A stretch of 64,000 nt of DNA from Chloroflexota bacterium (lineage in GTDB: Bacteria; Chloroflexota; Anaerolineae; Anaerolineales; Villigracilaceae), in contig JAIOAU010000013.1 in NCBI GenBank assembly GCA_019873655.1, positions 1 through 64,000 on the forward strand. Direction: 5' to 3'. The first letter of the stretch is position 1. Every line of letters starts with the position of its first letter. Positions 45,566 to 59,169 of this stretch are shown here, piece after piece. The notes under the pieces were generated by a model that was not told where the DNA came from, made no database searches, and saw only the letters and a list, made by a program, of their open reading frames with translations. A program made the translations under genes and the position numbers.

Positions 45566-45584
45566 TCAGTGTTCGGTGTTCAAT
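45552..45584. repeat. Stutter repeat at the nitroreductase stop
   Basis: TCAGTGTTCAGTGATCAGTGTTCGG-type tandem units, the reverse complement of the units at 43754 and 60164. It provides the TGA stop of the nitroreductase gene and runs into the larger repeat array. Confidence 0.75.
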
Positions 45585-45585
45585 C

Positions 45586-46070
45586 AAGGTTCGCGAGCGG
45601 TTGAACCGCGAGCCGTTCAGCCTTCAGTTCAGCAGTACAACTGCTGAAGGAACACACCTTCCAAGTTCGCGAGCACTTCAAGGTTCGCGAGCAGTTAAAC
45701 TGCGAGCCGTTCAGCAGTACAACTGAGTTGAACGTTCGCGAGCAGTTGAACTGAACGTTCGCGAGCAGTTGCACTGCGAGCCGTTCAGCCCTCAAAGTTC
45801 GCTTCAAGGTTCGCGAGCAGTTAAACTGCGAGCCGTTCAGCAGTACAACTTCAGCAGTACAACTGCTGAAGGAACGCGGTGGAGGGGATTGGTCGGTAGT
45901 CGAATACTCGTCAGTCGCAGGGCAGGCGGAGAGTCTGCCCTGCGTGCTATAGTATTGGATCAAGGTTCGCGAGCAGTTGCACTGCGAGCCGTTCAGCAAT
46001 ACAACTTCAGCAGTACAACTGCTGAAGGAACAAAGTACAACTGCTGAAGGAACAAAGTACAACTGCTGAA
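45586..46070. repeat. Array of hairpin repeats at the left edge of the island
   Basis: No gene is visible in this stretch. It holds about seven copies of GTTCGCGAGCAGTTNAACTG-type units, each with the small palindrome GCAGTTNAACTGC, interspersed with CAGCAGTACAACTGCTG hairpins followed by AAGGAAC. One copy of the 82-bp repeat lies inside. Long frames through it are artefacts of the repeats. Single related units recur at the right edge of the island. Confidence 0.85.
45871..45952. repeat. 82-bp island-flanking repeat, copy A (left outer)
   Basis: Begins GGAACGCGGTGGAGGGGATT and ends TGCGTGCTATAG. Contains the hairpin GCAGGGCAG...CTGCCCTGC. Nearly identical to copies at 46071, 58888 and 59044, all in the same orientation. 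Confidence 0.85.
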
Positions 46071-46152
46071 GGAACGCGGTGGAGGGGATTAGTCGGCAGT
46101 CGTTAGTCGTCAGTCGCAGGGCAGGCGGTGAGTCTGCCCTGCGTGCTATAAT
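46071..46152. repeat. 82-bp island-flanking repeat, copy B (left inner), with -10 box
   Basis: Same unit as copy A. It ends TGCGTGCTATAAT, an extended -10 promoter element (TGN-TATAAT with one base shift), about 90 bp before the methylase start, so it could drive that gene. Confidence 0.85.
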
Positions 46153-46240
46153 ATCAGCAACATCTTGTATAAACGGGGAAATCCCCTCCGGTCGGCAAAT
46201 TGGTTCAAAAGATGTTCTCTGCCCCCAACTCCAGCCTCCC

Positions 46241-49200
46241 ATGACCACCACCCTCCAAACCTACGAACAAATCCGTCAGCTGACCCCTGCCTTTGCCCGC
46301 TTTACACAAGAGGCGGCGGCGCAGGCGCACAACGAAGCCGAGTTCGAACGCCAGATGAACAACGAAATCGAGCGCCTGGCGGCAAAGCTCGGCGTGCAAT
46401 TGCTTTTTCGAGAGCAATACACCCTCGCCACCGGACGCGCCGACGCGGTCTATAACCGTTTCGTTATCGAGTACGAACCGCCCGGTTCACTGCGCTCCGT
46501 TCTCCCGCACGGACACACTACTCACGCCATCCAGCAAGTCAAAAATTACATCGAAGGTCTGGCGCGGGAAGAACGTCACGACCGCGACCGACTGTTGGGA
46601 GTCGCCTTCGACGGCAACTTCATCATTTTCGTCCGTTACCACCAGGGGCATTGGATTGTCGAAGAGCCGCTGGAAGTCAACGAGGCTTCCTGTGAGCGTT
46701 TCCTGCGCTCGCTGTTTTCCCTTTCGTCGGGGCGGGCGCTCATCCCCGAAAACCTGGTCGAAGATTTCGGCAATCAGAATGTCCTCAGCCATCAGGTCAC
46801 CGGCGCGCTCTATCGGGCGCTGGAACGCCACGAAAACGACCTGACGGCCCGCCTGTTCGAGCAGTGGAAACTCTTCTTCGGCGAGACGGCCGGCTACGAG
46901 GCTGCTGCTGGGGTCTTGCAACACAAGACCGAACTGCGCGCCTTTCTGCGCGGCATGGGATTGAAGCCTGAAGCGACCGACATGCCGCGCTTTTTCTTCG
47001 CCCTGCAAACCTACTTTGCTTTTCTGGTCGAAAACATCGCCCGCCTGGTGTTGCAGGCCTATGCCGGGGGCGCATTGGGCGCGACGCCGCTCACGACCGT
47101 CGCCTCCCTGCAAGGCGGAGCGTTGCACGCCGAACTGAAGAAATGGGAAAGCGGCGACCTCTACCGCCTGCTGGGGCTGAAAAACCTGCTCGAAGGCGAC
47201 TTCTTCGCCTGGTATCTGGACGCCTGGGACAACGAGGTGGAAGCCGCCCTGCGCCAGGTGCTGCAACGCCTGGCCGATTACAACCCCGTCACCGTGCAGG
47301 ACGACCCGCACTCCGCCCGCGACCTGCTCAAGAAACTCTATCACTACCTGCTGCCGCGCGAGATTCGCCACGACCTGGGCGAGTTCTACACCCCCGACTG
47401 GCTGGCCGAACGCCTGCTCACCCAGTTAAACGAGCCGCTCTTCGTCATGCCCAAAGCAGGGCAGATGCCGAGACTCGCCCCAAAACGCCTGCTCGACCCG
47501 GCCTGCGGTTCCGGCACGTTCCTGGTGCTGGCCGCCCGCGCCCTCAAGGCCAACTGCCGCCAGGCCGGGCTGGCCGAAGCCGATACCCTAGACATCCTGC
47601 TCAACAGCCTGGCCGGGATTGACCTGAACCCGCTGGCGGTGATGGCGGCGCGGGTCAACTTCCTGCTGGCCATCGCCGACCTGCTGCCCTACCGCCGCCG
47701 CGAGGTGGAAATCCCGATTTATCTGGCCGACAGCATCCTGACCCCCGCCCAGGGCGATGTGCTGGCGCACAACCGCCGCATCCTGGAGACCGCTGTCGGG
47801 CCGCTGCCTGTACCGCTGGCGATTGACAGCCGCGCCGAGATGGAAAAACTGACTGACCTGCTCGAAGAATACGTGCGCGGCGGCTTCGAGGCCGAAGTCT
47901 TCCTGCAGCGCTGCTGCGCCGACCTGCCCGACCTGAACGCCGACCCGGCCAACACGGCCATCCTGCGCGACCTCTTCGAGACCCTGCGCGACTTGCACCG
48001 GCGCGGGCTGGACGGCATCTGGGCGCGGGTGGTCAAGAACGCCTTCATGCCGCTCTTCCTGGAGCCGTTCGATTACATCGCCGGCAACCCGCCCTGGATT
48101 AACTGGGAAAGTCTGCCGCAAGGGTATCGCGACCGCTCCGCCCCGCTCTGGCAGGAACTGGGGTTGTTCGTTCATTCCGGCATGGACACCATCCTGGGCA
48201 AAGGCAAAAAAGACATTTCAACGCTGATGACCTATGCCGTTGCACGACGCTTTCTAAAACGCGGCGGCAAACTGGGCTTTGTCATCACCCAGAGCGTGTG
48301 GAAGACGAGCGGCGCCGGACAGGGCTTCCGCCGCTTCCGGCTGGGCAAAGAAGGAGAACACCTTCGCATCCTGCACGTGGACGACCTGAGCCGCCTGCAG
48401 GTCTTCGAGGGCGCCAGCACGCGCACCAGCGTCTTCGTCCTCAAGAAGGGCGAGCCGACCCGCTACCCCGTCCCCTATACCTATTGGCAGAAGACCACCC
48501 CCGGCCAGGGGCTGGATTACGACAGCACGCTCGACGAGGTGCTGGCGCAGACCCGCCGCCTGCGCTTCGATGCCGCGCCGGTGGACCCGGATGATCTCAC
48601 CAGCGCCTGGCTGACCGCCCGCCCGCGCGCCCTCAAAGCCGTACAGAAGGCATTGGGCAAATCCGAATACCAGGCGCACGCCGGCGTGACCACCTGGGCT
48701 AATAGCATTTATTGGCTGGAAAAGATTGCCGAGCGCCCGGACGGCTTGTGGATTGTGCGCAACCTGACCGAGGGCGCCAAACGCAAGGTGGACTCGGTCA
48801 CCGCCGAAATCGAACCCGACCTGCTCTACCCCCTGGTGCGCGGCCGCGACGTGCAGCGCTGGCAGGCGCAGCCTTCTGCCTACCTCCTGATGACGCAGGA
48901 CGCCCAACTGCGGCGCGGATTAGACCCAACCCTCCTGCAAACCCGCCACCCCAAAACCTGGGCCTATCTCAAGCGCTTCGAGGCCGTCCTGCGCGAGCGT
49001 TCCGGCTTCAAGCGCTATTTCACCCGCAAGCAGGGCAAACAGGTGGTGGAGACCGGCCCCTTCTACTCCATTTTCAACGTCGGCGAGTACACTTTCAAGC
49101 CGTGGAAGGTGGTGTGGCGAGAGCAATCTGCCTGGTTTACGGTTGCTGTTGTGGGCATGCAAGAGAATAAATGCATTGTTCCTGACCACAAACTTATGTT

Positions 49201-49591
49201 GATTGATTGTCAAGAAGAAAACGAAGCATTTTATCTGGCGGCGGCCTTGAACAGTTTGCCGGTGACGATTGCCGTTTGGTCATACGCTATTTCCATTCAA
49301 CAAACGACCCACATTACCGAAAAAATTGCCATTCCAAAATTTGACCCTGCCAACTCTGTTCACACTCGCCTAGCCGACCTCTCGCGCCAGGCGCACACCC
49401 TGGCGCCGGCGGCCTATGCAGGTGATGATGCTGCCTGGCAACAATTGCAGGCCATCGAAACACAAATTGACACCCTGGCGGCGCAGTTGTGGGGTCTCGC
49501 CCCGGCGGAACTGGCCGAACTGCGCGCTGCGCTGGAAGAATTGAAGGGCGACGATATCGGCGCAGAGGCAGGCGAGGAGGACGAGGAATAG
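46241..49591 (+). CDS. Eco57I-like restriction-methyltransferase protein
   Basis: A 1116-residue, single-chain type IIG/ISP-like protein. The N-terminal part may be a nuclease domain: GRADAVYNRFVIEYE has an Asp and a Glu spaced as in PD-(D/E)xK enzymes but with Glu instead of the usual Lys. The methylase core has LGEFYTPDWLAERLL, motif I DPACGSGTF (about 419-427) and motif IV NPPW (about 616-619), so it modifies adenine N6. The rest is a target-recognition region, ending in a coiled coil IETQIDTLAAQLWGL. The start MTTTLQTYEQ was chosen over a longer frame that runs into the repeat. Confidence 0.88.
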   Translation: MTTTLQTYEQIRQLTPAFARFTQEAAAQAHNEAEFERQMNNEIERLAAKLGVQLLFREQYTLATGRADAVYNRFVIEYEPPGSLRSVLPHGHTTHAIQQVKNYIEGLAREERHDRDRLLGVAFDGNFIIFVRYHQGHWIVEEPLEVNEASCERFLRSLFSLSSGRALIPENLVEDFGNQNVLSHQVTGALYRALERHENDLTARLFEQWKLFFGETAGYEAAAGVLQHKTELRAFLRGMGLKPEATDMPRFFFALQTYFAFLVENIARLVLQAYAGGALGATPLTTVASLQGGALHAELKKWESGDLYRLLGLKNLLEGDFFAWYLDAWDNEVEAALRQVLQRLADYNPVTVQDDPHSARDLLKKLYHYLLPREIRHDLGEFYTPDWLAERLLTQLNEPLFVMPKAGQMPRLAPKRLLDPACGSGTFLVLAARALKANCRQAGLAEADTLDILLNSLAGIDLNPLAVMAARVNFLLAIADLLPYRRREVEIPIYLADSILTPAQGDVLAHNRRILETAVGPLPVPLAIDSRAEMEKLTDLLEEYVRGGFEAEVFLQRCCADLPDLNADPANTAILRDLFETLRDLHRRGLDGIWARVVKNAFMPLFLEPFDYIAGNPPWINWESLPQGYRDRSAPLWQELGLFVHSGMDTILGKGKKDISTLMTYAVARRFLKRGGKLGFVITQSVWKTSGAGQGFRRFRLGKEGEHLRILHVDDLSRLQVFEGASTRTSVFVLKKGEPTRYPVPYTYWQKTTPGQGLDYDSTLDEVLAQTRRLRFDAAPVDPDDLTSAWLTARPRALKAVQKALGKSEYQAHAGVTTWANSIYWLEKIAERPDGLWIVRNLTEGAKRKVDSVTAEIEPDLLYPLVRGRDVQRWQAQPSAYLLMTQDAQLRRGLDPTLLQTRHPKTWAYLKRFEAVLRERSGFKRYFTRKQGKQVVETGPFYSIFNVGEYTFKPWKVVWREQSAWFTVAVVGMQENKCIVPDHKLMLIDCQEENEAFYLAAALNSLPVTIAVWSYAISIQQTTHITEKIAIPKFDPANSVHTRLADLSRQAHTLAPAAYAGDDAAWQQLQAIETQIDTLAAQLWGLAPAELAELRAALEELKGDDIGAEAGEEDEE

Positions 49592-50052
49592 GCGGCCTCG
49601 GCGGCATCGGTTGGAAACCGACGCCGCCCGGGCGGGAAGCCCGCCCTGCGGGCTTGACACGGCGAGGCGGGGGATTCCATCCCCCGCCGGGGATGCGGCG
49701 GCCTCGGCGGCATCGGTTGGAAACCGACGCCGCCCGGGCGGGAAGCCCGCCCTGCGGGCTTGACACGGCGAGGCGGGGGATTCCATCCCCCGCCGGGGAT
49801 GCGGCGGCCTCGGCGGCATCGGTTGGAAACCGACGCCGCCCGGGCGGGAAGCCCGCCCTGCGGGCTTGACACGGCGAGGCGGGGGATTCCATCCCCCGCC
49901 GGGGATGCGGCGGCCTTTTGCGGCATCGGTTGGAAACCGACGCCGCGCGGGCAGGAAGCCCGCCCTGCGGGCTTGATACGGCGAGGCGGGGGATTCCATC
50001 CCCTGCCGAAAGAGAGTTTGACACCGCCAGGCGGGAGACTCCATCCACGCCG
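49591..50052. repeat. REP cassette array: three identical 106-bp units plus diverged copies
   Basis: Units begin at 49591, 49697 and 49803 and look identical; a fourth diverged unit starts at 49909 and a partial one follows to about 50052. Each holds three hairpins: CGGTT-GGA-AACCG, AAGCCCG-CCCTG-CGGGCTT and GGCGGGGGAT-TCC-ATCCCCCGCC. No gene is present. It abuts the methylase stop on one side and the transposase on the other. Confidence 0.92.
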
Positions 50053-50080
50053 GACAAAATTAGCGACAAAGGCAGAGAGC

Positions 50081-50500
50081 ATGAAAAGAGCGGGTGCATT
50101 CTATCAACTGGTTTATCACTTCACCTGGAGCACCAAAAACCGCCAGCCGATGATTACGCCAGAAGTGGAAGCGCGCCTGTATGCCTATATCGGCTACAAA
50201 TGCAAGGAATTGGGCTATCGCCTGCATGCCATCGGCGGCACAGGAGACCATTTGCATGTTCTATTGAGTTTGACGCCGACTCAATTGGTGGCAGAGGCGG
50301 CCAAAAATCTCAAGGGTGCGTCATCGCACTACATCAACAAAGAAAGCGGATTGAACGCCACACTTTACTGGCAAGATGGGTATGGCGTTGTCACGCTGCG
50401 CCAATCTGAAATCCAAAAGGTTGTAAAATATATTCTGAACCAAAAAGAGCATCACCGACAAGGAAGACTCGCCGTTTTGCTGGAGAGAGCGCAGGAATGA
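50081..50500 (+). CDS. IS200/REP-associated (RAYT) tyrosine transposase
   Basis: A 139-residue HUH transposase. The HUH pair is in GDHLHVLLSL, and the catalytic tyrosine lies in VVKYILNQKEHH. It starts YQLVYHFTWSTKNRQPMI, the usual family opening. Size fits a TnpA of the IS200 type; with the adjoining REP cassettes it forms a REPtron-like unit. The coding DNA is more AT-rich than the REP array and the upstream gene. No TnpB is present. Confidence 0.92.
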   Translation: MKRAGAFYQLVYHFTWSTKNRQPMITPEVEARLYAYIGYKCKELGYRLHAIGGTGDHLHVLLSLTPTQLVAEAAKNLKGASSHYINKESGLNATLYWQDGYGVVTLRQSEIQKVVKYILNQKEHHRQGRLAVLLERAQE

Positions 50501-50539: not shown

Positions 50540-51676
50540 ATGCCTAATCCCTTTGCACCCTTGCAGCCTGCCCTGCAAATCCTGGCCACCGAAGCACGCG
50601 TCCTGCCGGCCACCGGGCAAGCCATTGTTGACATGGTCTCGCCCGATTTGGAAGAAGCCTACGACCGCGCTGCAGGCGGGCGGGATGAAAAAGTCACTTC
50701 GGTCTGGGAGACACGCCGGAAACTCTACCATGACGTTACGCCCATTCCCCGGCGTCAAGAACATCGCTTGCGCTATTTCCTGGACGGTTCGGCCAAAGTC
50801 TATTTCATTGGCACTCTGCTCGAACGCGAACGTTCCAGCCCGGTGCAGTTGGGTCAAATTGGCGCGGCAGCGGTATACCGGGAGGACGACGGACGCGTGC
50901 GCCGCGCCGCGGTGGAACACAAAATCCTGCTCCTGATGGACCAAAAGGCGCTCTCAGAGCAACTCTGGCAAGCCGTGGAGCAAACTGTGGCCGGTACGCC
51001 CAACATTCTGCTTCGTTCCACAAACGATAGCAAAGACCGTTTTAGCGAAGCGCTGGGGGTCATCGAACCACGCTCACGCGGCGCTCACCGCGCCAACTGG
51101 GCTATGCGTGAATTGGAGGTTGCTCTGGCGCGTGAAGGGCTAAAACGAGACCAAGACGACTGGCTGGTGCTGGATGGTGCGCTTGGCACCGAATACATGG
51201 ACTGGAACGGCTTGCCGCTGATAGGAGTAGCCAAATCCTTCCGGCGCGATACGCTGTTCGACTTGGGCAGCGGTCCGCGCGCCACACAGATGAACCTGTA
51301 TTCCATGCTGGCCGGTTTGCAAGTTAACCAACGCACAGCCGTTTTCCCGCGCTGGCCGGCGCAGGAACGCGAGGGCGCAATTGTTTTCTGGTACGTCCGC
51401 ATCCGCCCCCAACGCGGACTGGATTATCCGCTAATGGGCGTAGTCAAAGTGGAATTACCAAACCCTGGCCGACAGCCGGTGGATAGCGACCTGGTAGACC
51501 GCATTAGCGGCTGGATAATGGCCGAGCGTTGTGTTACGCCGCACGGACGCGATAACCGCTGGCACGCGCACCTTTATGCCATCAGCCTGGCCGAACGCGT
51601 CATCAAAGACCGATTCTATACCGAAGAAGTGCTCAAAGCTGCCATCCGCTGGCCGCAAATTGGTGTGCAATTGTGA
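50540..51676 (+). CDS. NurA-like nuclease
   Basis: A 378-residue NurA-domain protein. The catalytic aspartates are in YFLDGSAK (about D82) and LVLDGALG (about D212), with the lysine of IGVAKSF (about K232) and a late WHAHLYAISLAERV. NurA is a 5'-3' nuclease that works inside the HerA ring in archaeal DNA-end processing. Here it is 19 bp upstream of a HerA-like gene in a methylase operon, which favours a defence role. The ATG start was chosen over an in-frame GTG three codons earlier. Confidence 0.85.
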   Translation: MPNPFAPLQPALQILATEARVLPATGQAIVDMVSPDLEEAYDRAAGGRDEKVTSVWETRRKLYHDVTPIPRRQEHRLRYFLDGSAKVYFIGTLLERERSSPVQLGQIGAAAVYREDDGRVRRAAVEHKILLLMDQKALSEQLWQAVEQTVAGTPNILLRSTNDSKDRFSEALGVIEPRSRGAHRANWAMRELEVALAREGLKRDQDDWLVLDGALGTEYMDWNGLPLIGVAKSFRRDTLFDLGSGPRATQMNLYSMLAGLQVNQRTAVFPRWPAQEREGAIVFWYVRIRPQRGLDYPLMGVVKVELPNPGRQPVDSDLVDRISGWIMAERCVTPHGRDNRWHAHLYAISLAERVIKDRFYTEEVLKAAIRWPQIGVQL

Positions 51677-51695: not shown

Positions 51696-53405
51696 ATGAG
51701 CGACGAACATCCCGAAAACATCACTCCACAAAACGATATCATTGGACGCGCTTCGGCCACCGAACGCGAACCGAATACCGCCGACCGCTTCTCGTTTTGG
51801 ATTCACCCGGCTGGCCGTCTGAATCCTTTCGACATTGTAGCCGCCGAACATTTGGAGCAAAGCCACACATACGGCCTGGTCACCAATATCCGTCACGTCA
51901 CGGACGCCGCAGGGCATCTCTCCAACTTTATTTCAAACGACTTCGGCGAATTGGTGGACGAACCTAACACGCCGCGCCAGGGCGCCAATGTAGCCGATGT
52001 CTCAGTGCTATCGAATGATAAAGAAATCTACATGCCCGTGCAAAGCGAGGCGCGCGTCCGCTTTGCAGACGAGGCTGGGATTCACGACGCGCTAGGTATC
52101 GACACCATGGCCGAGAAAGAGAAACGTGAGGGGCGCAAGATCCGCATCCCCGCCGGCCTGATTCAAATGAGCAACGGGACAGACGCTGTCGCCTACCTGG
52201 ATGTAGATTATGTTCTGGGCCCGGAGGCGGGGCATGTCAACATCAGCGGAATCTCCGGCCTGGCCACCAAAACATCTTACATTACGTTTCTGATTCAATC
52301 CATTCTGCAAACTCTCTCCTCCGAAAAAATTGCTGTCATCCTGCTCAATGTGAAATACGATGACCTGCTCCACATCCATGAAGCGCGTCGATTGGAAGAT
52401 GATGAAACAGCGCTCTGGTCGCGGCTTGGGCTTAGGCCCGAACCATGGCCTGCTGACCGCGTACATTACCTTTTGCCCTGGGGCAAGCAAACCCAGACGA
52501 CAGGTAAACCGAATATCTTTGGAGACAGTATTCCACCAGGCGCGTCCTTCTACGCCTATGACCTAAAAACCACTGCGCCCAAACTGGATTTGCTTCTGTC
52601 GCACGTCCCCGATCCATGGGACACATTGGGGGCCCTGATTGGCGAGGTTAGCCAGGGGTTACAGGCAAATGAATCAAAATGGCGCGAAATTCGCACTTGG
52701 CAGGATTTGCTTTCCAAACCGCCATTATCAGAAAACGGCATTCCGCAAAAGTTTGGAAATATTGCTGCTTCCTCGGTAGGGCGTTTCTTGCGTTTGCTAC
52801 GCAGAGCGGTGCAAACTCGCCAAAGCGGTGTATTTGTGTCACAACTCAGCACCCGCATGACTACCCTTGAGAAAGAAATTGGCGCTATCAAAGGTGGACA
52901 TACTTACGTGGTAGATATTGCCCGCCTGACCGATGTCGAACAGACGCTGGTTTTTGGCGATGTGCTACGCACCGTTTATGCTATGTACTCCGGAGAATTG
53001 GCTCTCGAAAGCGATGATGAATTGCCAGAAAAAGTCATCGTGTTTGTGGACGAACTGAATAAATATGCTCCCAGCCGAGGCGAAGCCGCCGAATCTCCGA
53101 TTGTAGAGCAGGTGCTCGATATTGCTGAACGCGGACGCTCCTTCGGAATTATCTTGTTTTCCGCTCAGCAATTCCTGAGCGCTGTGCACCCGCGCGTTAC
53201 CGGCAATGCCGCCACCAAGGTATTGGGTCGCACAGACAGCGCTGAGGTCAACGAAGGGAACTACCGCTTCCTCGACAAAGATATCAAAATGCACCTGACA
53301 AGGCTGGACAAGGGTGAATTGATTCTCTCACACCCAATTTACCGCCAGCCGGTTAAGATTCGCTTCCCGCGCCCGCCATTCCTGCAAGGCCGTGTCAAGA
53401 AGTGA
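51696..53405 (+). CDS. HerA-like ATPase
   Basis: A 569-residue HerA/FtsK-superfamily ATPase. The N-terminal HAS-barrel part spans about 30-170. The P-loop is unusual: SGISGLATKTS (about 184-194) lacks the glycine normally before the lysine and has one extra residue, though the Lys-Thr pair is kept. Walker B is VIVFVDELNKYAP (about 447-459), followed by the sensor-like FSAQQFLSAV and an arginine-bearing GRTDSAEV. It should form a hexamer with the NurA product and translocate DNA. Strong ribosome binding site AAGGAGA. Overlaps the next methylase gene by GTGA. Confidence 0.85.
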   Translation: MSDEHPENITPQNDIIGRASATEREPNTADRFSFWIHPAGRLNPFDIVAAEHLEQSHTYGLVTNIRHVTDAAGHLSNFISNDFGELVDEPNTPRQGANVADVSVLSNDKEIYMPVQSEARVRFADEAGIHDALGIDTMAEKEKREGRKIRIPAGLIQMSNGTDAVAYLDVDYVLGPEAGHVNISGISGLATKTSYITFLIQSILQTLSSEKIAVILLNVKYDDLLHIHEARRLEDDETALWSRLGLRPEPWPADRVHYLLPWGKQTQTTGKPNIFGDSIPPGASFYAYDLKTTAPKLDLLLSHVPDPWDTLGALIGEVSQGLQANESKWREIRTWQDLLSKPPLSENGIPQKFGNIAASSVGRFLRLLRRAVQTRQSGVFVSQLSTRMTTLEKEIGAIKGGHTYVVDIARLTDVEQTLVFGDVLRTVYAMYSGELALESDDELPEKVIVFVDELNKYAPSRGEAAESPIVEQVLDIAERGRSFGIILFSAQQFLSAVHPRVTGNAATKVLGRTDSAEVNEGNYRFLDKDIKMHLTRLDKGELILSHPIYRQPVKIRFPRPPFLQGRVKK

Positions 53406-54619
53406 ACCGGGTTGATCTGCCCTCTCTGCCCGAAGGCTTTGAATACCGGCTTGATTTGCGGCATCATGTAACACCGCACTTGCTGAAAAGCCAGCCGATA
53501 CATCGGTGGTTTGCATTTCCTCATAGCTATTCGCCGCAGTTGATTGACGAAGTTCTAAAAACCTGTCCCATCTCGCCTACCGGAAAAATATTCGATCCAT
53601 TTGTCGGGGCTGGAACGACCGTGTTGCGCGCCCGGCAATTGGGATATTCCGCTGTAGGAACTGATCTTTCTCCGCTCAGTCTGTTCGTAAGTAGGGTAAA
53701 ACTGGGGGACTATAACAAAGAGACTCTTGAAGAAGCCCTAAATTCTATCCTCGCTTACCATCCCCTTCGAGAATATCCAGAAGTACCTCCAAGAATCCAA
53801 AAAGCCTTTACCGACCTGGAAATTCGACACATCTTCGGAATAAAAGAACGCATTCAACATTTGCCCCAGCCAATGGCTGATTTTTTTCAACTGGCTTTGC
53901 TGCGCGTCCAACAAACTGTAAGCCGCGCTACGCCGGATGGCGGCTGGTTCCGCTGGATAGAAAAAGAAGACCAAAGCCACCTGGTAAAAGACTTATTCGA
54001 ACGCCAGGCGCGATTACAAATCGGAGATGTCGCCCCCCTTACAACTTGCCAAAGCGAGATTTTGGCTAGTGACGCCCGCTCCCTAGACAATATTACCGGC
54101 AACTTTGAAATGGTGATCACTTCGCCGCCTTACCCGAATCGGCATGATTATTCACGCATCTTTCACATCGAATTACTCTCTCTCGGTTTGGCAGAAAAAG
54201 ATGTGACATTTTTCCGCCACCACTCAATTCGGTCCCACGTGGAGGCGGTGAAGCCATCTGCTGCGCCAAACGATTACCAAATGCCCCAAAAATTGGCCGC
54301 GACCCTGGAACAGATACCTCCTAACGCCGACCCACGCGTAATCCCTATGCTCCAGGGATACTTTGAAGATATGCACATGACACTCAAGGCGATCTCCTCC
54401 AGGATTTCACACAACGGATGGTGCGCTTTTGTGGTAGGCAACGTCCGTCACGCGGGTGTAATGATCCCCGTAGATGAGATTCTTGCTGAAATAGGCGAAA
54501 GTATTGGCTACAGACTTCAAGCAGTTTGGGTTGCCCGTCTGCGAGGAAACAGCGCCCAACAAATGGGTCGCTTTGGACGCGAGCCGGCCAGAGAAAGCAT
54601 AGTGATCTTTAAGAATTAA
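53402..54619 (+). CDS. DNA methyltransferase (SPPY type)
   Basis: A 405-residue amino-methyltransferase. Motif I FDPFVGAGTT (about 64-73) precedes motif IV SPPY (about 241-244), and a target-recognition part lies between. SPPY-type enzymes make N4-methylcytosine or N6-methyladenine. Starts at GTG overlapping the HerA stop by four bases. No restriction endonuclease partner is visible other than NurA-HerA, so the methylase may mark self DNA for that complex. Confidence 0.9.
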   Translation: MNRVDLPSLPEGFEYRLDLRHHVTPHLLKSQPIHRWFAFPHSYSPQLIDEVLKTCPISPTGKIFDPFVGAGTTVLRARQLGYSAVGTDLSPLSLFVSRVKLGDYNKETLEEALNSILAYHPLREYPEVPPRIQKAFTDLEIRHIFGIKERIQHLPQPMADFFQLALLRVQQTVSRATPDGGWFRWIEKEDQSHLVKDLFERQARLQIGDVAPLTTCQSEILASDARSLDNITGNFEMVITSPPYPNRHDYSRIFHIELLSLGLAEKDVTFFRHHSIRSHVEAVKPSAAPNDYQMPQKLAATLEQIPPNADPRVIPMLQGYFEDMHMTLKAISSRISHNGWCAFVVGNVRHAGVMIPVDEILAEIGESIGYRLQAVWVARLRGNSAQQMGRFGREPARESIVIFKN

Positions 54620-54890: not shown

Positions 54891-54965
54891 TCCCGACCCG
54901 CTCGCGCCTTCGCTCTGTCATTCCCCTGGCGAAACATCGCGCCAATCCCCTCCCCGCGCAGCGAC

Positions 54966-54995
54966 CTGCGCAGACAGGCTCAAAGCCTGTCCTAC
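54966..54995. repeat. GACAGGCT...AGCCTGTC dispersed hairpin, copy 1
   Basis: CTGCGCAGACAGGCT and AAGCCTGTCCTAC form a hairpin with a short loop. A near-identical copy is at 59170-59199 on the other side of the island. Confidence 0.7.
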
Positions 54996-55127
54996 CAGGC
55001 AGCGCGAGATGAAACGTCCGCGCTGACGGAGCAAATCGAGCAGGTGGAAAGAGAAATTGACGAGCGTGTGAGCGAGTTGTATGGATTGCGCGAGAACCCA
55101 TCGCGAATTCACCAAAAAAGCGTATGA
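54996..55127 (+). pseudogene. Remnant of the C-terminus of a type II-like DNA methylase
   Basis: The frame reads ALTEQIEQVEREIDERVSELYGL, then ends RENPSRIHQKSV. Coiled EIDxxVxxLYGL tails are typical of Eco57I/PglX-type methylases. Only about 44 codons remain, without a start, and the left edge meets the dispersed hairpin. It suggests a second restriction-methylase gene was lost from this spot. Confidence 0.55.
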
Positions 55128-55759: not shown

Positions 55760-56512
55760 ATGAAGACCATTGAAAAAAGGCTGGTTCACTCCCTGGCAGA
55801 ATTTTTGAATGTAACAGCCGAGATCATTGAAGAGTGGTCCAGTCCAGAGATGGGCGAGGCGCAGCCCTGGTACCGCGGACAGATGAAAGCCGCATGGAGT
55901 CTCGTGCCGGGTGAATTCCGTTACGAAAACATCGACGCGGATGAATTGCGTACCCAATTTGAACTCAAGGCAAGGCCGCTTCTGACGAGCATTCCACAAA
56001 ACGAATGGGAATGGTATTTTCTAATGCAGCATTATGGGTTACCCACCCGTCTATTAGATTGGACAACGGGTTCGTTAATTGCATTGCACTTCGCATTGTG
56101 TCACGAAACCGGCTGTCACGATGCTGCCGTATGGGTACTGGATCCATGGAACTTGAATACTTGGAGCGTGGGTAGTCCGGATCTGCTGCTGACAACAGAC
56201 GAAAAACTAGGAGAGTATCTTTCTCCCCCTTATAGCAAGAAACGATATCCCTCAAAACCTGTTGCTGTTGTTCCCCCTTATAATAGTGCAAGAATTACGG
56301 TCCAGAGAGGAGCCTTTACCGTTCACGGCAATGATCCAAGAGGGATTGATCAACAGTTCAAAAAGAGGTTGATCCAAATTGTGATACCAAAAGACGACGC
56401 GATTCTGATGCGTCGCCAATTGAGAAATGCAGGTATAAGTGAGTTTACTCTCTTTCCTGAACTGGATGGCCTTTGCCGCGACATCCGCGCTCTGTATATC
56501 GAGGGCTGTTAA
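55760..56512 (+). CDS. FRG-domain protein
   Basis: A 250-residue protein whose FRG domain shows WYRGQ near residue 38, GEFRYEN and the hallmark QHYGLPTRLLDWT. FRG domains occur in prophages, toxins and defence loci, and structural relation to ADP-ribosyl or other transferases has been suggested but not settled. Coding DNA is AT-rich relative to the core genome. Pairs with the preceding 193-residue gene. Confidence 0.85.
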   Translation: MKTIEKRLVHSLAEFLNVTAEIIEEWSSPEMGEAQPWYRGQMKAAWSLVPGEFRYENIDADELRTQFELKARPLLTSIPQNEWEWYFLMQHYGLPTRLLDWTTGSLIALHFALCHETGCHDAAVWVLDPWNLNTWSVGSPDLLLTTDEKLGEYLSPPYSKKRYPSKPVAVVPPYNSARITVQRGAFTVHGNDPRGIDQQFKKRLIQIVIPKDDAILMRRQLRNAGISEFTLFPELDGLCRDIRALYIEGC

Positions 56513-58731: not shown

Positions 58732-58887
58732 CGCGCAAGGCCGGGAGGAAAAGCAGTCTCAGAGTTTCATCTCCACAGAGCCTTTACATTGCTTTTAGTT
58801 TTCCAAGTGCATCATAAGTCATAGACCGAGCCCCCGGATGGCACGAGAGGCAAATACAAAGAAACAACAGCAGTACAACTGCTGAAA

Positions 58888-58970
58888 GAACATGGTTGGA
58901 GGGGATTGGTCGGTAGTCGAATAGTCGTCAGTCGCAGGGCAGGCGGCGAGTCTGCCCTGCGTGCTATAGT
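58888..58970. repeat. 82-bp island-flanking repeat, copy C (right outer of the pair)
   Basis: Same unit as copies A and B, direct orientation. It is followed, as copy A is, by GATCANGGTTCGCGAGCAGTT and a CAGCAGTACAAC hairpin, so the A-B and C-D blocks share more than the unit itself. Before it, 58732-58887 holds no gene. Confidence 0.85.
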
Positions 58971-59043
58971 TTGGATCAGGGTTCGCGAGCAGTTAAACTG
59001 CGAGCCGTTCAGCAGTACAACTTCAGCAGTACAACTGCTGAAA

Positions 59044-59126
59044 GAACATGGTTGGAGGAGATTAGTCGGCAGTCGAATAGTCGTCAGTCGCAGGGCAGGC
59101 GGCGAGTCTGCCCTGCGTGCTATAAT
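59044..59126. repeat. 82-bp island-flanking repeat, copy D, with -10 box
   Basis: Ends TGCGTGCTATAAT like copy B, about 107 bp before the cofD start, so it may act as a promoter for cofD-cofC. Confidence 0.85.
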
Positions 59127-59169
59127 CAGTCTGCCCGACCACCAACCACCCGACTACTCGACTCCCGAT

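Follow-up and report, generated by a model that had tools for sequence, protein, structure and literature searches.

A HerA-like ATPase with an extended Walker A loop, encoded in a tdtA-type operon on putatively acquired DNA of a Chloroflexota bacterium

The closest described counterpart of the gene set analyzed here is the operon TTC1877-TTC1880 of Thermus thermophilus HB27, which is located on the 14.9-kb element ICETh1 and encodes the type IIG enzyme Tth111II, a NurA-like protein, TdtA, and an N4-N6 methylase, with intergenic spacings of 4, 2, and -4 bp (PMC5365140). In the parts of that study drawn on here, TdtA is a hexameric ATPase, no transjugants were detected without it, and DNA transfer dropped by 4 to 5 orders of magnitude without NurA and by approximately 3 orders without the IIG enzyme (values from the text; the figure legend orders the bars differently). 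Absence of the methylase had minor effects on transfer, as far as described in a second Thermus paper (PMC7767461). The ATPase activity, the hexamer, and the need for TdtA, NurA, and the IIG enzyme are results of the Thermus work, and the cutting and pumping of DNA by these proteins constitute the model of that group (PMC5365140). The same source names T. scotoductus DSM 8553 as bearing a tdtA-like cluster; this locus, recovered in our collection as L028, encodes the IIG, NurA, and HerA proteins without a methylase, and its HerA carries the loop GISGLATKT. In a literature search on NurA-HerA with methylases, IIG enzymes, defense, or TdtA, the Thermus papers were the only description of the gene set that we recognized.

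For the ATPase itself, the reference structure is HerA of D. radiodurans, which has GISGVATKT at the loop position and was found by a PDB sequence search with the protein under study (7f6d, 7wrw, and 7wrx). According to the portions of PMC9960219 considered here, K175 of this HerA pairs with the beta-phosphate of ADP, T176 coordinates Mg, D220 is named as the catalytic acid, and mutations of K175 reduce both ATPase activity and resection. The ATPase is poor with Mg, being 10- to 100-fold under that of Sulfolobus HerA, and is better with Mn, DNA, and NurA; these portions hold no remark on the departure of the loop from the textbook motif (PMC9960219). Known already, then, are the loop, present in a solved structure, and the gene set, described in Thermus. 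The present comparison adds that the tdtA gene set occurs far outside Thermus, and that a functional HerA Walker A may lack the usual glycine and be one residue longer. Members of this branch can therefore be overlooked when proteins are annotated by the classic motif.

We analyzed the first 64,000 nucleotides of a contig from a Chloroflexota bacterium (JAIOAU010000013.1), hereafter the window. Four genes in it have the order of the ICETh1 operon, that is IIG, NurA-like, HerA/TdtA, and N4/N6 methylase, and were likened to it by order, lengths, and overlap as published (Table 1); the -4 bp overlap of herA and the methylase gene is common to both, as is the location on low-GC acquired DNA. The window differs from ICETh1 by an IS200-like transposase gene, which interrupts the operon upstream of nurA, just after the IIG gene, so that cotranscription is uncertain. 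It also differs in setting: ICETh1 is an excisable element with a XerC-like integrase and tRNA att repeats, whereas the window copy sits in an F420-type gene cluster, and neither a tRNA (at 40-64 kb) nor an integrase (in the window, by a profile from four relatives' integrases) was found there. The translation of the HerA-like frame is NISGISGLATKTSYITFL.

Table 1. Features of the operon and its surroundings in the window (lengths of the ICETh1 proteins, from PMC5365140, in brackets).
Feature	Coordinates	Strand	Remarks
Left repeat cluster	45583..46154	.	Related to repeats at 58863-59128
Type IIG restriction enzyme-methyltransferase	46241..49591	+	Likely ATG start 46241; 1116 aa (1106 aa); PADLOC IIG model, 1543.8 bits
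IS200-like (Y1) transposase	49760..50500	+	Pfam Y1_Tnp, E 4e-25; between IIG gene and nurA
NurA-like nuclease	50540..51676	+	Likely ATG start 50540; 378 aa (377 aa); Pfam NurA, E 3.7e-4
HerA/TdtA-type ATPase	51696..53405	+	569 aa (568 aa); D. radiodurans HerA match by profile
Walker A loop SGISGLATKTS	52245..52277	+	aa 184-194; K192 and T193 correspond to K175 and T176 of D. radiodurans HerA
NVKYDD	52347..52364	+	Invariant D223, aligned with D220 of D. radiodurans HerA
Walker B VIVFVDELN	53034..53060	+	aa 447-455; D452, E453
RGRS	53130..53141	+	aa 479-482; conserved arginines R479, R481
N4/N6 DNA methylase	53402..54619	+	405 aa (410 aa); TSPPY; 4-bp overlap with herA stop; Pfam N6_N4_Mtase, E 1.4e-6
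Right copies of edge repeats	58863..59128	.	Related to 45583-46154

We consider it probable that the loop is functional and that the protein is a hexameric ATP-driven DNA pump of a tdtA-type operon on acquired DNA, a reading for which this analysis establishes the sequence and its homology, the composition of the operon, the insertion, and the identity of the loop. DNA donation has been demonstrated in Thermus alone; by analogy, we infer that the window copy may act like the Thermus copy, donation included. In such a scheme, the IIG enzyme would nick or cut chromosomal DNA at its sites, most of which would be protected by methylation; the NurA-HerA assembly would take the DNA end, NurA would trim it, and HerA would drive double-stranded DNA out of the cell. 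The loop lysine would bind the beta-phosphate and the next threonine Mg, as in D. radiodurans HerA.

The original prediction, made from the DNA letters, had described SGISGLATKTS as an atypical P-loop accompanied by an intact Walker B motif and arginine region, and this description is exact. The loop lies within the interval it gave, and in comparison with GxxGxGK[ST] it has one extra residue, T191, and A190 in place of the glycine before the lysine. Inspection of the translation by eye revealed no canonical GKT or GKS elsewhere in the window HerA, the finding that would have undone the claim. G185, G188, A190, K192, T193, and S194 are invariant in all 39 aligned HerAs, with T191 and S187 almost invariant, and since its residues are so conserved the loop is not a chance feature. 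Also invariant in 39/39 and aligned with D. radiodurans HerA are D223 and, within VIVFVDELN, D452 and E453, although the loci were gathered with six peptide patterns, one of which, FVDELNKY, covers Walker B, whose conservation in the collected set is thus partly selected; none of the six covers the loop. RGRS is present as described, with R479 and R481 conserved, and these two residues may play the arginine-finger role. Pfam returned no match above cut-off for the window HerA; two relatives, taken from two clades, had no match at E<=0.01.

A profile of the 39 relatives matched D. radiodurans HerA best in the PDB (7f6d_B, E 1.3e-65) along nearly the whole protein, and counting along this alignment places the lysine of ATKTS at residue 175. 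The AlphaFold model of the window HerA has a mean pLDDT of 86.7, with low confidence at residues 71-79 and 81-94. Among the matches listed, its closest structures are 7wrw and 7wrx (Z 35.7, rmsd 3.1-3.2 over 503-504 residues, 31% identity); residues 14-567 of the model, comprising the HAS barrel and the RecA-like domain, align to 13-599 of 7wrw_B at Z 35.7. The likeness to D. radiodurans HerA-NurA thus covers the unusual Walker A (with V for L), the aligned catalytic D, the DE of Walker B, the fold, and the NurA partner, whereas that HerA, 31% identical over the structural alignment, belongs to a different large clade, which has VATKT and is linked to SbcD. Sulfolobus HerA (4d2i, Z 28.3) and the Thermococcus protein 9x1m (Z 24.5), which was solved in complex with NurA, have the HerA fold as well; these archaeal HerAs differ by an identity of 16-19% to the window HerA, and the archaeal Walker A is presumably canonical. 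The SIR2-HerA and DUF4297-HerA anti-phage complexes likewise have the HerA fold (Z 18.5-25), at approximately 11-16% identity, and according to their entry titles the partner nuclease is SIR2 or DUF4297, not NurA; to our knowledge, these complexes are without a methylase.

The loop is probably a working Walker A like that of D. radiodurans HerA, with GxxG[LV]A-T-K-T in place of GxxGxGK[ST]; ATP use through it is predicted from homology to tested proteins. A degenerate loop in a non-hydrolyzing HerA relative, specialized through loss of its ATPase, would explain the departure from the textbook motif, and the poor Mg-dependent activity of D. radiodurans HerA, raised by Mn and DNA, could be read in the same way (PMC9960219). 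This explanation is very improbable, and a dead P-loop was rejected, given that the loop is near-invariant over many phyla, that a loop of the same kind binds ADP-Mg in the solved structure and needs its lysine for ATPase activity (PMC9960219), and that TdtA is an ATPase (PMC5365140).

The distribution of the loop was read in 82 loci, namely the best 80 of 457 confirmed relatives on genome contigs, the window itself (L001), and L002, which shares a contig with L007; L036/L037 and L057/L058 hold HerAs that are identical in the tree columns. GISGLATKT is exact in 80 of these 82 loci (best 80 of 457 plus two), the remaining loops being GIGGLATKT and GISGLAAKT. By linkage within the same set, it occurs in 29/29 methylase-linked loci, in 33/34 loci with the IIG enzyme and no methylase, in 12/13 loci linked to a GHKL ATPase and a radical SAM protein, and in 6/6 others. 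The loop is thus far from randomly scattered. As a marker of methylase linkage or defense it was rejected, since it is common to all linkage classes.

The wider Chloroflexota sample gave a HerA match in 65 of 400 drawn genomes, the source genome included. Loops could be read in 124 of the 131 matching open reading frames, with no pattern match in the other seven, and every loop read was one residue longer than canonical, with GISG[LV]ATK[TS], LAAKT, LASKT, or close variants. For L107, the second pattern match, GISGVATKT, is the loop, the first match being wrong. A clade of five rows also shows GRGTKS, GSGTKS, and ASTKS, all of which retain the extra residue before the lysine, whereas the glycine is retained in some of them. 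The constant feature is therefore the extra residue, and A for G is the commoner form. As possible intermediates between the canonical and ATKTS loops, GRGTKS, GSGTKS, or ASTKS are carried by L109, L111, L112, L113, and L116, of which L113 and L116 are the same protein by length and loop. The other HerA-like protein of the source genome (DUF87 match) has the canonical loop GATGTGKS; it is encoded on contig C17 (L118, L160), approximately 7 kb further on from a second, better-scoring NurA. A phage nurA-herA pair with an ATKTS loop, located a few kilobases from a LexA-like gene, was observed in Marinitoga camini virus 1 (L114).

A HerA tree of 105 rows resolves into three large groups, with one phage row standing alone. 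SbcD (Mre11) is encoded downstream in 18 of the 23 rows of the first group (16 by tblastn, among them L107, where a short fragment at the contig edge matched, and two by annotation); of the five rows in which it was not found, L102 and L109 run into a contig edge, and L096, L097, and L099 show no SbcD. D. radiodurans HerA is placed in this group, a placement that rests on its 16-row set (support 99), the outgroup row being a wrong reading frame of L160. In the second group, of 14 rows, the partners are a GHKL ATPase and a radical SAM protein (12 labeled rows plus L090 and L115; a longer stretch of L090, L124, shows both partners). The 67 rows of the third group are mostly linked to a large IIG enzyme, and within this group all 29 rows that have the extra methylase fall together. 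For this methylase-linked set, the quick tree of 105 rows gives an SH-aLRT of 98 with all 29 rows. With 26 of these rows, the SH-aLRT is 75 under the mixture model, and the careful tree gives a bootstrap of 65 and an SH-aLRT of 98. Partial HerAs (L041, L068, L076, and L078) were left out of the trees, and the mixture-model and careful trees were also built without near copies, long branches, and partial rows. A single origin of the methylase-linked rows is favored, not proved.

These trees bear on two further parts of the original prediction, that the loop could mark a distinct HerA clade specialized for defense and that ATKTS might cluster with methylase-linked members. The loop does mark a distinct bacterial branch, and the methylase-linked rows are nested in it; relatives without a methylase carry the loop as well. 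The loop appears older than the methylase link, since all 29 methylase-linked rows fall into a single nested group. The defense specialization found no support: D. radiodurans HerA and the SbcD-linked HerAs carry the loop, and the closest characterized operon, tdtA of ICETh1, serves DNA donation. What bacterial NurA-HerA does is disputed, and three sister clades with one loop type and different partner sets (SbcD; IIG with or without the methylase; GHKL ATPase plus radical SAM protein) make this question testable by partner swap.

Within the operon, the IIG enzyme combines a PD-(D/E)xK-like nuclease motif, GRADAVYNRFVIEYE..QVKNY, with the methylase motifs DPACGSGTF and GNPPW (N6 methylase), and had no PDB match at 0.001. 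The D, E, and Q of the nuclease motif are kept in 37 of 37 aligned rows, as is the last Y in all but one; EY is followed by E in 22 rows and by K in 15, and GNPPW occurs in 37/37. Among the 82 loci (best 80 of 457 plus two), the IIG enzyme has a homolog in 55, nurA, which adjoins herA in the window, in 79 (exceptions L042, L066, and L068), and the N4/N6 methylase in 29, with SPPY in all 29. The Pfam match of the NurA-like protein, at 20.5 bits, falls just below the cut-off of 21; its profile matched D. radiodurans NurA (7f6d_H, E 1.2e-6), whereas a PDB search with the single sequence found no NurA. Neither IIG, methylase, nor GHKL was detected in six of the 82 loci (best 80 of 457 plus two; L024, L042, L043, L056, L065, and L066), four of which are shorter than 9 kb.

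The pairwise distances of the IIG, NurA, and HerA proteins rise together (r 0.90-0.93, with 0/999 permutations as high), and those with the methylase do so at r 0.72-0.73; shared descent alone would also produce such covariation. In the sample of 400 Chloroflexota genomes, the IIG enzyme (E<=1e-50) is present in 12 and a HerA of the IIG/methylase clade in seven, counted by hand, with six shared (hypergeometric p 1.2e-9, or 3.3e-8 without the source genome, for genomes that are not independent). A chance neighborhood of IIG and HerA was rejected on this co-occurrence. The remaining 6/12 IIG-bearing genomes are without a HerA of this clade.

These data also bear on the proposal that the cassette is a restriction-modification defense, in which the IIG enzyme would cut incoming DNA that lacks methylation, NurA-HerA would degrade this DNA from its ends, and host DNA would be protected by the second methylase. 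The nuclease D, E, and Q and the methylase motifs kept in all 37 rows agree with it, as do an IIG enzyme that also occurs alone, its position beside a methylase as in plain restriction-modification, the mixed phylum labels on the HerA tree, and a patchy occurrence in 2 of 61 genomes, the source genome being one of the two. In the portions considered here, a 2026 paper on Thermococcus HerA-NurA likewise argues for possible antiviral defense over end resection (PMC12977600). Against it, the IIG and NurA genes of Thermus are needed for donation and the methylase is minor (PMC5365140, PMC7767461), and we regard defense as the main alternative, possible and, on balance, rather unlikely. Our literature search recognized no phage test of the IIG-NurA-HerA-methylase cassette. 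Among the seven proteins scanned at 46-56.5 kb, no SIR2, DUF4297, Dnd, MADS, or like partner was found beside herA; the IIG and methylase genes score far lower against the mad2 methylase model than against restriction models, and the window HerA matches the PADLOC HerA and mad8 models weakly (31.6 and 30.5 bits). This result concerns the known anti-phage HerA systems and does not speak against restriction-type defense.

Another explanation is that a DNA-repair NurA-HerA pair, acting in end resection as proposed for D. radiodurans and for Thermus HepA, merely adjoins restriction genes. The protein families are the same, and a related clade has SbcD downstream in 18/23 rows. However, the window HerA belongs to the IIG-linked clade, not to the SbcD-linked clade with D. 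radiodurans HerA, and its distances covary with those of the IIG enzyme. In the Thermus study as far as consulted, HepA of HB27 (TTC0147), which is 31% identical to TdtA, matters for stress survival, whereas deletion of TdtA left heat-shock survival unchanged and changed UV survival marginally (PMC5365140); the TdtA/HepA pair in HB27 is in line with two HerA clades. In Oceanithermus, hepA is followed downstream by the genes for SbcD and SbcC (PMC5448004). We therefore find repair an improbable account of the window locus and retain the DNA pump of a tdtA-type operon as the preferred reading.

The genomic setting points to acquired DNA. Genes at 46-58.7 kb have a GC3 of 0.44-0.76, compared with 0.855-0.88 in the left flank and 0.82-0.90 in the right flank. 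The left-flank genes presumably encode a CofE-like protein and a nitroreductase, and the right-flank genes CofD-, CofC-, and Mer-like proteins. Of 27 other genomes that have a CofD match, 20 carry a nitroreductase homolog within 600 bp upstream of it and two more carry a CofE homolog there; in five, neither was found that near. Since GC3 drops and the flanking genes adjoin in 20/27 other genomes, we conclude that the window carries an insertion. The repeats at its edges also occur on one other contig. In the stretches examined, an integrase-type recombinase is near 5 of the 69 loci outside the GHKL set (best 80 of 457 plus two), and in the nearest relative (L003, 88% identity; best 80 of 457) a phage integrase directly follows the methylase gene. 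The low-GC3 insert also encodes an FRG-domain protein at 55760-56512 (PADLOC candidate PDC-S15, 172.6 bits). The source genome has a ComEC-family gene, so DNA uptake is possible, but the presence of this family in 10 of 14 control genomes makes it say little.

On the HerA tree, 54 of 61 rows labeled by record titles with 18 phylum labels give 26 changes, compared with 31.8 for shuffled labels and a minimum of 17, in line with some vertical signal and much apparent transfer, in bins that may be contaminated. A broader proposal, which we put forward tentatively and hold with some doubt, is that IIG-NurA-HerA(-methylase) cassettes are widespread mobile DNA-export modules in at least a dozen phyla and that donation is perhaps a general route of gene flow. 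If true, transjugation-like donation would be an overlooked gene-flow route built from restriction and repair parts.

Several minor observations concern the genes around herA. Four tandem repeat copies with a spacing of 106-107 nt share the interval between the IIG gene and nurA with the IS200-like transposase gene (49582-50500), and a short frame at 54891-55124 has a weak IIG profile match (E 1.1e-4) and is perhaps a remnant. In L003, L008, L009, and L011, three extra genes separate the IIG gene from nurA, the middle one in L003 encoding an AAA ATPase with a weak BrxC/BrxD match. The NurA-HerA clade with the GHKL (HSP90-like) ATPase and the radical SAM protein includes L067, L070-L077, and L079-L082 (13 of the 82 loci; best 80 of 457 plus two), as well as one Chloroflexota genome (L124) and one fecal phage scaffold (L115). 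PADLOC gave no match for the two partners in L071, and our literature search found no paper on this combination. In L046, L051, L060, L061, and L063, an IIG-linked NurA-HerA is accompanied by a different radical SAM protein after the IIG gene, which in L046 also matches a B12-binding domain.
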